A program made the translations under genes and the position numbers. A stretch of 64,000 nucleotides of DNA. Source: Candidatus Marisimplicoccus framensis (lineage in GTDB: Bacteria > Bacteroidota > Bacteroidia > Flavobacteriales > Flavobacteriaceae). Each line of letters starts with the position of its first letter. Position 1 is the stretch's first letter. Positions 35,569 through 57,602 of this stretch are shown piece by piece. The stretch is taken from the NCBI GenBank assembly GCA_905182065.1, contig CAJIZN010000001.1, positions 248,001 through 312,000 on the forward strand, written 5' to 3'. The notes below the pieces were generated by a model, which worked only from the letters and a program-made list of their open reading frames with translations, was not told the origin of the DNA and did no database searches.

Positions 35569-36309
35569 TTATAGCTTAGCTTTTAGAAATTCTTTATTCA
35601 TCCTTGCAATATTTTCAATTGATATACCTTTTGGACATTCAACCTCACATGCACCTGTATTTGTACAGTTTCCAAACCCTTCTTCATCCATTTGCTTTAC
35701 CATATTTAGAACCCTGTCTTTAGCTTCAACTTGTCCTTGAGGTAAATATGATAATTGGGAAACCTTAGCAGACACAAATAGCATAGCAGATGCATTTTTA
35801 CAAGTAGCTACACAGGCTCCACAGCCAATACATGTTGCAGCATCGAAAGCACTGTCAGCATCAGATTTTCTAATTGGAATTGTATTTGCATCTTGAGTAT
35901 TACCTGAGGTATTAATACTTATATACCCTCCAGAATGTTGAATTCTATCAAAAGCTGATCTATCTACTACTAGATCTTTAATTACAGGAAATGAGCTTGC
36001 TCTAAAAGGTTCAATTACTATAGAATCTCCATCTTTAAATTTTCGCATGTGAAGCTGACAAGTCGTAATACCTGTGTCTGGTCCATGCGCTCTTCCATTA
36101 ATAAATAATGAACAACTACCACATATACCTTCCCTACAATCATGATCAAAAGCTATAGGATCAACTCCTTCTAAAATAAGTTTTTCATTCAAGACATCCA
36201 TCATTTCAAGAAATGACATATCTGGGGTTATTTCATCAATTTCATAATTGTGAAGGCTTCCCTTAGATTCTGAGTTAGATTGTCTCCAAATTTTTAGATC
36301 TAATTTCAT
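35569..36309 (-). CDS. sdhB: Succinate dehydrogenase / fumarate reductase iron-sulfur subunit
   Basis: Electron-transfer subunit of complex II, 246 residues. The [2Fe-2S] motif is [16 protein letters not shown] with TTCQLHM. The [4Fe-4S] site is [11 protein letters not shown], and the [3Fe-4S] site is [14 protein letters not shown]. The long inter-cluster segment is typical of the fumarate-reductase-like complex II of Bacteroidota. It is separated from sdhA by an S10 peptidase gene, which is unusual. Confidence 0.95.
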
Positions 36310-36310
36310 T

Positions 36311-37819
36311 TTAATACTTTGCTGATTTATTATTTGTTACTGTATTTAATATAAAATCTCTTAAATCTTGATTTGATTTTTTTAAGTCCTCTCTTCTTAA
36401 ATACATCATATGACCACTTTCATATCCTTTAAATATAAATCGATCTTTAAGTTTACCCGAAGGATCTACTTGTTGCATAGTATACTTTGCAGCAGAAAAA
36501 GTTGTAGCACCATCATAGTATCCCGACTGTATTAGGACATTTAAAAATGGGTTTTCTGCAATTGCCTCTCTAAAATTTCTTCTAATATTTATATTATCTG
36601 AATCCCAGGGTCTAACTGATAACTCATTTCTAGCCCAAGTATTATATTTTATATCCGTTTCGAATTTTAAAACTTCTTTGATGTATGAATTTATTGCAGG
36701 TGTAAAAGCATGATCCCAAGCACTCATTTCTGGTGCATATTCAAAATAATTTCCAGAATCTTTACTATCTATTCCTTTGTATCTAGAATCAAGTCTACCT
36801 ATTGTAAACCCTTCATCTCTTAAAAGTTCTTTCCAGAAAAAACTAGTTGAAATATTTAAATTATTCTTTATTATTTCATCATACTCTATACCAGTAAGTA
36901 TTTCAATTTTTTTAGCAATTTCATCCTTTTTACCCTCACTTATATACCCTCCCTTCGCAAGAGCTGGAAGTAATTCATTATATGCAAAATCTTCAGAAGT
37001 TTCAATAATCTCTTCCAAAGATTTCTCTTGAAGATTTTTATTTAACTTATTGTGGTACCATGCAGTAGCAGAAAAATATGGAAAGTCCACAGTGGGAAGA
37101 ATTATACCTCCTGATTCATATCTTAGTTCATAATCAGCAGGAGAGACTAGAACTACTCCATTTAAATAAAGCCACTGATTTTGTTGAAGCTCATGTGCAA
37201 GACCCATTACTCTGACACCTCCATAACTCTCACCTATTATATACTTAGGAGACTTCCATCTATTAGATCTAGATACGAATGTACTCATCCACTCTGCTAG
37301 ATACTTTGCATCTTGATTGACACCAAAGAATTTATCTGTTGCTTCTTGTTTTGTCATCTCTTTCAAGATTCTGGAATAACCAATATTAATTGGATTTACA
37401 AAGACAATATCTGCAACATCTAATATTGAATAAGGATTAGATTTATATCCATACGGTTGAATAGGATATCCTTCATCATCAATTATTAAATTGTAGGGGC
37501 CTGTATATCCCATATGCATCCATATTGAAGCTGAACCAGGACCTCCATTAAATGAAAACGCTAATGGTCTATTAGAGTCATCCTCAATATCAGTTCTTTT
37601 GTAATAAGTGTAATGAAGAGTTGCAATTACTTCTCCCTTTACATCCCAAATGGGTTGAGTTCCAATTTGAGCGGAATAGTTTACTTTTTCTCCAAGGATT
37701 GTAGTAGAATGATTTGTTATTACTTTTTGGTCAGCTGAAATCTGCCTATCAAAAATACTTCCTTGTGAATAGGTGTTTATTGATACTAAAAGTAAAAATA
37801 TGCTGAATAAATTTTTCAT
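36311..37819 (-). CDS. Secreted S10 serine carboxypeptidase-like protein
   Basis: A 502-residue exported alpha/beta hydrolase of peptidase family S10, with signal peptide [19 protein letters not shown]. Motifs are [20 protein letters not shown] (oxyanion region), [15 protein letters not shown], and the nucleophile Ser in GESYGGVR. The acid is in [10 protein letters not shown] and the His in [11 protein letters not shown]. It lies between sdhA (10 bp) and sdhB (1 bp) on the same strand, so it is co-transcribed with complex II despite having no obvious functional link. Substrates are unknown. Confidence 0.88.
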
Positions 37820-37828
37820 GATTTTATA

Positions 37829-40168
37829 TTATTTATAGGATCTAGTTTTGATTTCTATTTCTTCATACTTTAAATCTTCTTTATGTAAAATTGGTTTTGT
37901 TGGATCATTATTAAATTCCCACGCTGAAACAAATTTAAAGTTTTCATCATCTCTTATTGCTTCTCCATCACTAGTTTGGAACTCCTCCCTAAAGTGTCCA
38001 CCACAAGATTCTCTTCTTTGTAATGCATCAATTGCAAATAACTCACCCAGTTCTAAGAAGTCTGAAACTCTCGTAGCTTTAGCTAGTTGCTCATTAAATT
38101 CTGATTTAGTTCCAGGAATTTTCACATTTTTATGAAAGTCTTTTCGTAAATCTTGAATTTCTTTAATGGCTTTTTTTAAGTCTATTTCATTCCTAGACAT
38201 TCCACACTTCTCCCACATTATTTTTCCAAGTTTTTTATGATAATAATCAACAGAATTTACTCCATCATTGTTAATTAACTTATCAATTTGCTCTTCTATT
38301 TTTTTCTCACTCTTTTCGAACTCTTCTGAATCAGTAGAAATTTTACCAGTACTTATTTCATCAGACAGATAATCTCCAATAGTATAAGGAAGAACAAAAT
38401 ATCCATCAGCCAGACCTTGCATTAGAGCTGATGCTCCAAGCCTATTTGCACCATGATCAGAAAAATTAGCCTCTCCTATTGCAAAACATCCTTGAATAGA
38501 AGTCATTAGATTATAGTCAACCCAAACCCCACCCATTGTGTAATGAACTGCTGGATATATTTTCATGGGTACTTTATAAGGATCTTCATCTACAATTTTT
38601 TCATACATCTGAAAAAGATTCCCATATTTTTGTTTAACAACATCTCTTCCTAGTTTATAAACTAATTCTGAATCAGAAGAATCCTGACCACTTATTTTTA
38701 CTTTTTCTTCACCATATCTAATAATTGCGTGAGAGAAATCGAGGAAAACAGCTTCTCCTGTTTGATTAACTCCATATCCATTATCACATCTTTCTTTTGC
38801 AGCTCTAGAGGCAATATCTCTTGGAACTAGGTTTCCAAATGCTGGATATCTTCTTTCCAAATAATAATCTCTTTTTTCTTCAGGTAAATTTACAGGAGAT
38901 AATTTTCCATTTCTTATCAACTCTGCATCAGATTTCTCTTTAGGGACCCAGATCCTTCCATCATTTCTTAAAGACTCAGACATTAGGGTCAATTTAGATT
39001 GATAATCACCCGAAACTGGTATACATGTAGGGTGAATCTGCGTGAAACATGGGTTAGCAAAATAGGCACCTTTTTTGTGAATTTTCCATGCTGCAGAAAC
39101 ATTACTTCCCATTGCATTAGTTGATAAAAAGAATACATTTCCATAACCACCAGATGCAATAACTACTGCGTGAGCGGAATGTCTTTCTAATTTACCTGTA
39201 ACTAGATCTCTTGCAATTATTCCTCTGGCTTTACCATCAACTTTTACTATATCCATCATCTCATGCCTACTAAACATTTCAATTTTTCCTCTAGCAATTT
39301 GTCTATTCATTGCTGAATATGCTCCTAATAGTAATTGTTGTCCAGTTTGTCCTTTAGCATAAAAAGTTCTTGAAACTTGAACCCCTCCAAAAGATCTATT
39401 ATCAAGAAGACCTCCATAATCTCTTGCAAAAGGAACACCTTGAGCAACACATTGATCAATTATATTTCCTGATACTTCTGCTAATCTATGAACGTTTGCT
39501 TCCCTTGATCTATAATCTCCACCCTTAATTGTGTCATAAAAAAGTCTATAATTTGAATCTCCATCTCCTTGATAATTTTTAGAAGCATTAATACCTCCTT
39601 GAGCAGCTATTGAGTGAGCACGTCTAGGAGAATCTTGAAAACAGAATGCTTTTACATTATAACCTAACTCTGCAAGAGAAGCTGAAGCTGAGGATCCTGC
39701 TAGGCCTGTTCCAACAACAATCACGTCTATATTTCTTTTATTTGAAGGACTAACTAGGTTTATCTTACTTTTATGATTTTCCCATTTAAGTGCTAGGGAG
39801 CCTAAGGGAATTTTAGAGTTTAGAATATTCTCCAATTTAACTGAAGTAGAATCATCCTTAATTTTTAAAGTCTCAAGTTCAACTTTTAATTTTTCAGGAG
39901 TAAGAACTTTGTCATTAGTTTTATAAGAATGGATAATATCTTCTAGTTCAGTTTTAACAGAATCAATTTTTTGATTTTTAGACTTATATTCTTTATCTCC
40001 TGACTTTACTTTTTTATTAGTAAAATCCCAGTGCTTATTATTAATTTTTAGACTACAGAAAACTTTTGTTCTCTTACTATCATTATGGTAAATAAAAAAA
40101 GGCGAGACATATTCATCAGAGCTTTTCTTTTTATACTTGACATGTTTTTCTGTTAGATACAATCCCAT
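37829..40168 (-). CDS. sdhA: Succinate dehydrogenase flavoprotein subunit with N-terminal integrase-arm-like domain
   Basis: The C-terminal ~668 residues are a standard complex II flavoprotein: [20 protein letters not shown] (FAD-binding), covalent-FAD His in [13 protein letters not shown], and DGRIW and [20 protein letters not shown] segments. Normal flavobacterial SdhA begins about where residue 112 stands here ([18 protein letters not shown]), and residue 112 is a TTG at 39835 that could itself be a start. Residues 1-105 instead resemble the arm-binding domain of Bacteroidota tyrosine integrases: a [25 protein letters not shown] core, NKKVK, then helices ending [10 protein letters not shown]. 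No integrase catalytic domain follows. The frame is open throughout, so a fused 779-residue protein is possible. Confidence 0.88.
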
Positions 40169-40196
40169 TATGCAAATATATATTTTTTTTTATTCA

Positions 40197-40217
40197 TTGT
40201 ACCCCGTTTTGTGCCCC
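40197..40217 (-). repeat. Paired GGGG(C/T)ACAA repeats upstream of the arm-like domain
   Basis: On the minus strand GGGGCACAAAA (40217-40207) is followed by GGGGTACAA (40205-40197), between the sdhC stop and the ATG of the fused sdhA. Two near-identical G4-rich repeats directly before an integrase-arm-like coding segment look like arm-type binding sites of a mobile element. A similar pair stands alone at 57574-57602. A TATATTTG element (40180-40173) then ends 4 bp before the ATG at 40168. Confidence 0.55.
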
Positions 40218-40220
40218 AAA

Positions 40221-40886
40221 TTAATGCATCATATTATGAAAGATTGCAATAAAAATAAAACCAAAAGGGATAACAATAGAAAAGATTAAAGTAAAAGATT
40301 TAAGTAAATTATAATATCGAGAATTTATACCAACAGTTTTTAGTGAGGAACTAAATCCATGGAGTAAGTGTAACGCTAAAAAAATAAACGATAATGAATA
40401 AAACGAAGTTCTTACAGGACTCTCAAATTTATGAATTAACTCCTCATAATACCTATCAGGATCATTAGGTAAAAACTCAATGTATTTATAATTTATTTCT
40501 GGAACCCAAAAATCATAGAAATGAAGAAATAAGAAAGACAACACTACTCCTCCACTAATAATCATATTTCTTGATATCCATGATGAATTATCTTTCCCTA
40601 CATATCTTGAATAATTTTTACCTCTCGATTTTCTGTTAATAATCTCAAGATAAAAGCCCATTATAAAGTGAAATATAACTCCAAAAATTAAAATTGGTTG
40701 AAGAATAAATTGAACGACAGGGTTTGTCCCCATAAAGTGAGATATCATATTAAATATGCTTTCACTAAAGACAGATGTTATATTTATTAAAAAGTGTTGT
40801 GTTAAAAACACAACAAGGAAAAGACCAGATAAGGCCATTAGTATTTTTCTCCCAATCGAGGAATCTATAAGCTTCATTGCAATCAA
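40221..40886 (-). CDS. sdhC: Succinate dehydrogenase cytochrome b subunit
   Basis: Membrane anchor of complex II, 221 residues (218 if the later Met is used). About five helices fit the single-subunit, di-heme type B anchor of Bacteroidota. Motifs are SSIGRKILMALSGLFLVVFL, TQHFLINITSVF, GVIFHFIMGFYLEI, FLFLHFYDFW and FLALHLLHGFSSSLKTVG, with histidines positioned as heme ligands. I prefer MKLIDSSIGRK as the start. It is first of the operon sdhC-sdhA-S10-sdhB. Confidence 0.92.
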   Translation of the reverse strand: MIAMKLIDSSIGRKILMALSGLFLVVFLTQHFLINITSVFSESIFNMISHFMGTNPVVQFILQPILIFGVIFHFIMGFYLEIINRKSRGKNYSRYVGKDNSSWISRNMIISGGVVLSFLFLHFYDFWVPEINYKYIEFLPNDPDRYYEELIHKFESPVRTSFYSLSFIFLALHLLHGFSSSLKTVGINSRYYNLLKSFTLIFSIVIPFGFIFIAIFHNMMH

Positions 40887-56892: not shown

Positions 56893-57093
56893 TTAATTTC
56901 CTATGAGGTTAAGAAAGATATATTTCCAAATAAGATATAATAGGTGTCCTAGAATTAACCCCCAAGTCAAAACCTTTTTTACATTTTTATCTCCTTTGAA
57001 AAATTTAAGTTTGTCTACAAGAATATAAGAAATTAAAATACTTATTAGTATCCACAATCCAAAAGCAGTATAATCTATTAAAGTGAAGTTCAT
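56893..57093 (-). CDS. Small two-helix membrane protein
   Basis: A 66-residue product with two hydrophobic helices (about 8-26 and 42-63) separated by a basic loop KLKFFKGDKNVKK. It overlaps the upstream lipoprotein gene by 4 bp (ATGA), an arrangement that supports translation. No family recognised. Confidence 0.55.
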   Translation of the reverse strand: MNFTLIDYTAFGLWILISILISYILVDKLKFFKGDKNVKKVLTWGLILGHLLYLIWKYIFLNLIGN

Positions 57094-57506
57094 TGTGTAA
57101 GTGATTTTTCAGCTTTTTGTTTTATTCTTGATTTATTTAAAATACTATCTCTTAATTCCGACTTCCTGTCAAATTCTTTATCAGTAATATTAATCTTCAT
57201 TAACTCTCTATTAACTGTATATATTTCATAATTAAACAAAGCTTGATTTAAAAACTCTAATGCTTTAATTTCATTATCTACTCCTCCAAGACTATTATCT
57301 TTTTTTAACGCCTTTGAATAAACAGAAATAATTTCTTCGGCAATAATTTCATAGGCCTCTATAAAAGCACTTTCCATCTCTTCAGATTCAAGCTCTTTTG
57401 CCTCATACGTTGATTCACCGGATTGACTGAAGTTATAACTGTCTAGATAATAGATCTCCCCTCCACAACTAACTAGAAAAAAAGATAAGAATAGAATTTT
57501 TCTCAT
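57090..57506 (-). CDS. Lipoprotein of unknown function, helical
   Basis: A 138-residue lipoprotein: MRKILFLSFFLVSC lipobox, then GGEIYYLDSYNFSQSGES and a mostly helical, Glu-rich body (YEAKELESEEMESAFIEAYE). It has no motif I recognise. Its stop overlaps the start of the small membrane protein, so the two form one unit. The 184-bp gap upstream contains the G4 repeat pair at 57572-57602 and no gene. Confidence 0.6.
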   Translation of the reverse strand: MRKILFLSFFLVSCGGEIYYLDSYNFSQSGESTYEAKELESEEMESAFIEAYEIIAEEIISVYSKALKKDNSLGGVDNEIKALEFLNQALFNYEIYTVNRELMKINITDKEFDRKSELRDSILNKSRIKQKAEKSLTQ

Positions 57507-57571: not shown

Positions 57572-57602
57572 GGGGGGTACAATATAAGTATAGGGGCACA
57601 AA
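57572..57602 (+). repeat. Solitary GGGG(T/C)ACAA repeat pair
   Basis: GGGGTACAA (57574-57582) and GGGGCACAAA (57593-57602) lie 10 bp apart in a gene-free stretch. The same two words, in the other order and 1 bp apart, precede the integrase-arm-like segment of sdhA at 40197-40217. In a ~30 percent GC background two G4 words next to each other stand out. It may be the footprint of a lost element or an attachment site. Confidence 0.45.

Follow-up and report, generated by a model that had tools for sequence, protein, structure and literature searches.

A predicted DNA-binding domain fused to SdhA, together with conserved repeats before its gene, suggests a self-regulating enzyme in marine Flavobacteriales

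The window analysed here is a 64,000-nucleotide (nt) stretch of DNA from Candidatus Marisimplicoccus framensis (contig CAJIZN010000001.1, positions 248,001 to 312,000 of the forward strand). Its minus strand carries an sdhA gene, encoding the flavoprotein subunit of complex II, that is composed of three parts: an arm-type DNA-binding domain, a short linker and a complete SdhA. Two repeats and a promoter-like box precede the start codon. The components of this locus are as follows:

37829..40168, minus strand: fused sdhA open reading frame (ORF), 779 residues, comprising arm-type domain, linker and complete SdhA
39884..40135, minus strand: PF17293 arm DNA-binding domain, residues 12–95 of the fused SdhA
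39830..39874, minus strand: linker, residues 99–113, 15 codons, loosely conserved
37832..39823, minus strand: SdhA proper, residues 116–779, with PF00890 and PF02910
40173..40180, minus strand: TATATTTG, proposed −7 promoter box, 4 nt before the ATG
40198..40205, minus strand: proximal repeat GGGGTACA, proposed operator
40210..40217, minus strand: distal repeat GGGGCACA, proposed operator

The reading frame 37829–40168 starts with ATG and translates with zero internal stops. An earlier note on this DNA, whose coordinates and sequence statements are correct, described the extra N-terminus as resembling the arm-binding domain of integrases, and the Pfam results bear this out. The whole ORF matches Arm-DNA-bind_5 (PF17293) at residues 12–95 with an E-value of 1.5e-8; the N-terminus alone gives 6.5e-10 and 39.8 bits, above the curated cut-off of 22.6. 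All 11 N-termini scanned from the genus match PF17293 at E <= 0.001. The predicted structure of the domain is β-β-β-α-α, with a mean predicted local distance difference test score (pLDDT) of 74. Comparison of the fusion N-terminal domains with the PDB, by sequence and by fold, gave no significant match, and PHROGs returned just two weak matches (0.027 and 0.1). The remainder of the ORF contains FAD_binding_2 at residues 148–582 (9.1e-52) followed by Succ_DH_flav_C at 644–778 (3.8e-37). Judged by domain content, the ORF is an intact, complete SdhA carrying an extra domain of DNA-binding type. No recombinase family is among the 10 Pfam families listed for it, and it is thus not a tyrosine integrase.

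Ordinary flavobacterial SdhA contains the same flavin adenine dinucleotide (FAD) and C-terminal domains, likewise with sdhC upstream, and most unfused relatives share ~67–90% identity with the SdhA part of the fusion (one shares 61%). The ordinary protein starts near fusion residue 114, overlapping the 3′ end of sdhC in genus members such as G003. At 87.6% completeness, the window's genome contains one SdhA match at E <= 0.001. Production of a second, normal-length protein from an internal TTG had also been suggested. This codon exists at position 39835 (residue 112), but it is found in only one of 11 fused genes, and in eight of the 11 the stretch from residue 81 to residue 140 lacks any in-frame ATG, GTG or TTG; the idea of two protein forms is not supported. 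The segment between 39835 and 40168, where a stop or an assembly join might have explained the fusion, contains no stop. An assembly chimera can be ruled out because the same fusion recurs in many separate assemblies of the genus.

The two repeats lie between sdhC and the sdhA ATG, 29–49 nt upstream of the ATG, and are spaced 12 bp apart. In the 12 aligned regions from fused genomes, GGGG[CT]AC and GGGGTACA retain this 12-bp spacing, with G020 differing between the two blocks. Across the 25 genus genomes, the pair pattern turns up in the 12 that bear the fusion but not in the other 13; a reversed control pattern was found 0 times. As pairs, the repeats noted earlier exceed chance and are real. 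In G020 the match lies elsewhere in the genome, and the pair at its own sdhA deviates. Taken singly, the word GGGGNACA is not rare in the window (five found against 1.69 expected, a count reached by 5 of 100 shuffles), so the evidence rests on the pair and its conservation. Downstream of the pair, a TAT[AC]TTTG box is present in all 12 aligned regions, which we propose to be a −7 element on the basis of the Bacteroidota promoter consensus. In the window the box lies 4 nt before the ATG, so that the predicted transcript would have next to no leader, with the proximal repeat positioned near −33.

The fusion is present in 12 of the 25 genus genomes, the window's included: 10 copies are full length, one (G013) continues up to the contig end after residue 617, and one is split. 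In this last genome (G006), the first 33 residues end one contig and SdhA from residue 126 starts another, from which we infer a fusion. Five genomes encode ordinary SdhA (G003, G024, G008, G009 and G012), two (G001 and G023) contain a later piece of SdhA alone, and in six no SdhA match was obtained, one of these (G007) having weak paralogues alone. A profile search identified 12 named records that encode the N-terminus, most of which evidently correspond to these genomes under their public names; they include MED-G11, MED-G122, FRAM18_bin214, an UltraPac bin and eight AG- isolates. The AG- isolates are presumably single-cell genomes, though some titles say metagenome-assembled genome. One study places MED-G11, a GTDB genus, in the NS5 marine group; it assigns one MED-G11 species to NS5_A, whose genomes average 1.17 Mb with ~30% GC (PMC9122927). 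Judging by an 87% match of the N-terminus, the window probably belongs to MED-G11.

The arm domain is under purifying selection, and the linker is mostly looser. Ratios of non-synonymous to synonymous substitution rates (dN/dS) in four close pairs (G000–G002, G010–G015, G022–G019 and G021–G022) are 0.06–0.12 for the arm and 0.02–0.035 for SdhA; those for the linker are 0.57, 0.18, 1.0 and 1.4, rough figures given its 15 codons. Six other pairs were left out of this analysis, with synonymous distances of 0.66–2.4 or undefined in at least one part. The genus forms one supported clade in a tree of 49 SdhA cores, within which the fused rows require three changes and two unfused groups are nested inside. 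The arm and core trees agree in separating G020, G000 and G002 from the other fused genomes. The simplest reading of these trees is one ancestral fusion in the genus followed by two losses; repeated gain or transfer is possible.

Two further kinds of N-terminal domain were found on SdhA elsewhere in the order, and we refer to the window's kind as type A. Type B, a domain of ~100 residues, occurs in G028, G229, G269, G259 and G104 (families f1, f11 and f8). Three of these five match PF17293 weakly (best 0.0019), and the predicted structure is β-β-β-α with a mean pLDDT of 82. A type B profile searched against 296 genomes of the order recovered four SdhA fusions and one weak match to another protein. 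Aligned by hhalign, types A and B give an E-value of 1.3e-7 when the SdhA junction is included and 0.00034 (probability 38%) when trimmed, the best of 40 column-shuffled controls of the trimmed comparison being 0.062; only a distant link between the two is suggested. Type B needs three changes on the SdhA tree, so it either arose or moved more than once, or is ancestral and was widely lost. Type C occurs at eight loci in seven genomes of family f6. Its N-terminus is PF12728 (HTH_17) in G054, the one member scanned (53.7 bits against a cut-off of 27, 2.5e-14), the other seven loci being typed by alignment; the core VSxKTIRRHIxSGKI is found in 8/8. In the closest type C pair, dN is about equal for the HTH (0.046) and for SdhA (0.048); in the other six pairs, whose synonymous sites are saturated, the HTH changes 1.4 to 4 times faster than SdhA.

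Each type is accompanied by its own repeats. Among 35 loci tested, GGGG[CT]AC occurs twice in each of the five type A loci and in 0/30 others. GTGTTA is present in 4–7 copies in all five type B loci, against 0.44–0.71 expected, and enrichment of [GA]GACAA is equalled by 10 or fewer of 200 shuffles in seven of eight type C loci and by at least 17 of 200 in every non-C locus; the B and C words were picked after inspecting some of the same loci. In G028, the type B repeats stand before both sdhC and sdhA, and GTAACAC occurs five times in 12 kb (0.34 expected, 0/200 shuffles). In two other type B genomes, G229 and G269, sdhC runs into sdhA, and the TGTGTTA-like repeats stand before sdhC. The type C repeats extend over the start codon. 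In one type C genome (G117, L097), the sdhC–sdhA gap that holds the repeats also contains a tandem copy of roughly 100 nt before sdhA. Two contigs of G125 (C22 and C29; L092 and L093) encode two different type C SdhA proteins on two branches of the SdhA tree; G125 has a contamination estimate of 5% and may be a mixed bin.

Fusions were confirmed in at least 12 genomes (13 loci, the window included) among the SdhA matches listed for 395 genomes of the order, in a survey that counted 343 and 342 genomes with a match and followed frames of at least 730 residues. Every fused genome among the matches listed is 1.9 Mb or smaller. In the class (159 genomes, 147 with a match), no confirmed fusion besides the window is among the matches listed. 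Six other long frames (G109, G170, G323, G455, G480 and G436), three from the survey of the order and three from that of the class, were rejected as fusions: in five the frame opens with out-of-gene sequence and the usual start comes further in, and G109 is likewise, before a short tail. No donor was confirmed in viral contigs searched with the A and B profiles.

Further GGGGYACA pairs occur in the window, at G000:C1:316015, and in G013, G016 and G020, all fusion-bearing genomes, and adjoin a gene whose coiled-coil product has a segment weakly resembling AP2. The corresponding features are:

57574..57600, plus strand: second GGGGYACA pair of the window, 19-bp period, possible further target or relic
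918–1391 of L112, minus strand, and G000:C1 near 315435–315965: coiled-coil gene

The window's second pair lies 68 nt upstream of a 138-residue lipoprotein-like gene (57090–57506, minus strand). In G013 and G016 the pair stands between this lipoprotein-like gene and the divergent coiled-coil gene, and in G020 it is downstream of the coiled-coil gene, before an aminotransferase-like gene. The coiled-coil gene was found in eight of the 25 genus genomes, all fusion-bearing, and in 1/296 genomes of the order, namely the window's own, where it is shorter and has two in-frame stops where relatives extend upstream. Repeats of G4 type precede it at seven of eight loci, the second copy starting with AGGG at four (G021, G022, G010 and G006). 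The extra pairs may mark a small regulon, or they may be left over from the element that delivered the arm.

Before docking on the membrane partners of complex II, SdhA is a soluble protein. In the mechanism we propose, undocked SdhA would occupy the repeat pair at the −33 region and silence sdhA; once docked in complex II, or in a different redox state, it would be held off the DNA. Synthesis would then follow assembly or succinate flux in a PutA-like manner, without a separate regulator. By sequence, the locus has both features expected of an autogenously regulating enzyme, a domain of DNA-binding type in the enzyme and conserved sites to match it at the enzyme's gene. Since the fusion is conserved, its arm is under purifying selection, the promoter repeats are kept, and other domains are found with other repeats elsewhere, we favour the view that the domain binds the repeats and makes sdhA self-regulating; DNA binding and the direction of control are inferred. 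That the fused SdhA is an autogenous regulator, most likely a repressing one, similar to PutA but independently built from domains like those of mobile-element proteins, appears somewhat probable. The chances seem about even for a broader proposal, in which SdhA in streamlined marine Flavobacteriales lineages gained at least two, probably three, kinds of DNA-binding domain (two arm-type, one HTH_17) and became an assembly- or redox-sensing transcription factor for sdh, with a few extra targets in the window's genus. Two loci weigh against the pairing of each domain with its own repeat: at one type C locus (G125a) [GA]GACAA is not enriched, and the unfused G024 carries three copies of GTGTTA. 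The copies in unfused G024 and G003, 325–580 nt before sdhA and within the span of sdhC, were read as background.

The fusion could instead be a scar, in which the promoter and integrase start of an integrating element were left on sdhA as tolerated baggage without function. Integrases typically carry arm-type domains, five genus genomes have a normal SdhA, and paired repeats stand before the start of some PF17293 integrases in relatives. The likeness of the sdhA repeats to arm sites, proposed in the earlier note, is moderate: in a survey of 20 PF17293 loci of relatives, made without a shuffled control, four (L033, L036, L045 and L047) have paired repeats of at least 8 bases within 85 nt of the start, a fifth (L052) has one 106–117 nt from the start, and most others have no pairs. 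Functionless baggage is hard to reconcile with the low arm dN/dS beside mostly looser linkers, with sites kept in 12/12, with three domain types on the same subunit, or with a B profile that hits no integrase in 296 genomes, barring one weak match of unchecked identity. Retention of the fusion in 12 genus genomes, the low arm dN/dS and the kept sites favour adoption of the domain, perhaps as a regulator, over an element end stuck to sdhA, and of these two origins raised in the earlier note adoption is by far the better fit. We regard a scar as improbable.

The repeats might also belong to a different DNA-binding protein, for instance the coiled-coil one, leaving the arm another role such as DNA anchoring. 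The confinement of the coiled-coil gene to fused genomes and the repeats upstream of it are in keeping with this. However, the gene was undetected in four fused genomes that have the pair (G002, G017, G015 and G019; 55–84% complete), the resemblance to AP2 falls far short of the cut-off (0.079, in one of four members scanned), and types B and C are left unexplained; such a division of labour is unlikely, if marginally less so than a scar. Alternatively, autogenous control might act at translation, through binding of the N-terminal domain to its own mRNA near the start. The nearly absent leader and the type C repeats that span the start codon would suit this arrangement, but the predicted transcript begins downstream of the A and B repeats, and we take PF17293 and HTH_17, from their names and use, to be DNA-binding families. 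Translational control seems the least probable of these three alternatives.

Transcriptional self-regulation by the fused SdhA would have a parallel in PutA, also a flavoenzyme with an N-terminal DNA-binding domain (predicted in the case of SdhA). A report on trifunctional PutA proposes autogenous control with a DNA/membrane switch, and shows that grafting can give a related enzyme such a domain (PMC5293562). The fused SdhA differs in being another enzyme, in having an arm-type or HTH_17 domain rather than the ribbon-helix-helix (RHH) domain of PutA, and in having integral complex II partners. No PutA domain (proline dehydrogenase, P5C dehydrogenase or RHH) is among the Pfam families listed for the fused ORF. 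The PF17293 tyrosine integrases of Bacteroidota resemble the fusion in sequence match and in the direct repeats before some of their genes, but the fusion lacks the recombinase domain and has SdhA attached instead. Apl of phage 186 is a recombination protein that also regulates transcription via direct repeats one helix turn apart (PMC7498355); it is a stand-alone excisionase, whereas the fused SdhA is an enzyme fusion. We found no report of a DNA-binding SdhA in the open PMC literature, from which most subscription papers are absent. The design of a DNA-binding metabolic enzyme is already known, and what is new here is its placement on a core respiratory complex. If self-regulation is correct, a core respiratory and tricarboxylic acid cycle enzyme would be the regulator of its own gene in small-genome ocean bacteria, and a respiratory complex would sense its own state directly. 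The three pairings of domain and repeat would then be repeated natural trials of one solution, suggesting a route from mobile-element-like protein domains to host regulators.

The sdh genes flanking the fused sdhA in the window are:

40221..40886, minus strand: sdhC, membrane anchor gene, upstream of sdhA; Sdh_cyt 3.9e-6
35569..36309, minus strand: sdhB, iron-sulphur subunit gene, downstream of sdhA; Fer2_3 1.3e-23

One gene (36311–37819, minus strand, 502 residues), presumably a secreted serine carboxypeptidase as judged by eye, separates sdhA from sdhB; unlike in the window, the two are directly adjacent in G028 and G054.

Arm-like ORFs were also observed away from sdhA in the genus. In G008 (contig C2, L078 1780–2016, minus strand), a 78-residue arm-like ORF, preceded by the pair GTTGCCAATATGTTGCCAAT, lies directly upstream of, and out of frame with, an FAD flavoprotein gene without an obvious start, and is possibly another arm–flavoprotein fusion; a search of the other 24 genus genomes for this ORF gave no relative at E <= 0.01. 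An arm-domain ORF in G003 (contig C17, L074 2045–2212, plus strand) runs off the contig end and is preceded by paired GTCC-type repeats, with a second copy of the pair ~220 nt upstream. Two longer arm-domain genes, in G024 (L075 410–2053, minus strand, 547 residues) and G019 (L076 991–2727, minus strand, 578 residues), are integrase-like by eye, and each adjoins a gene that looks like an RNA methyltransferase.
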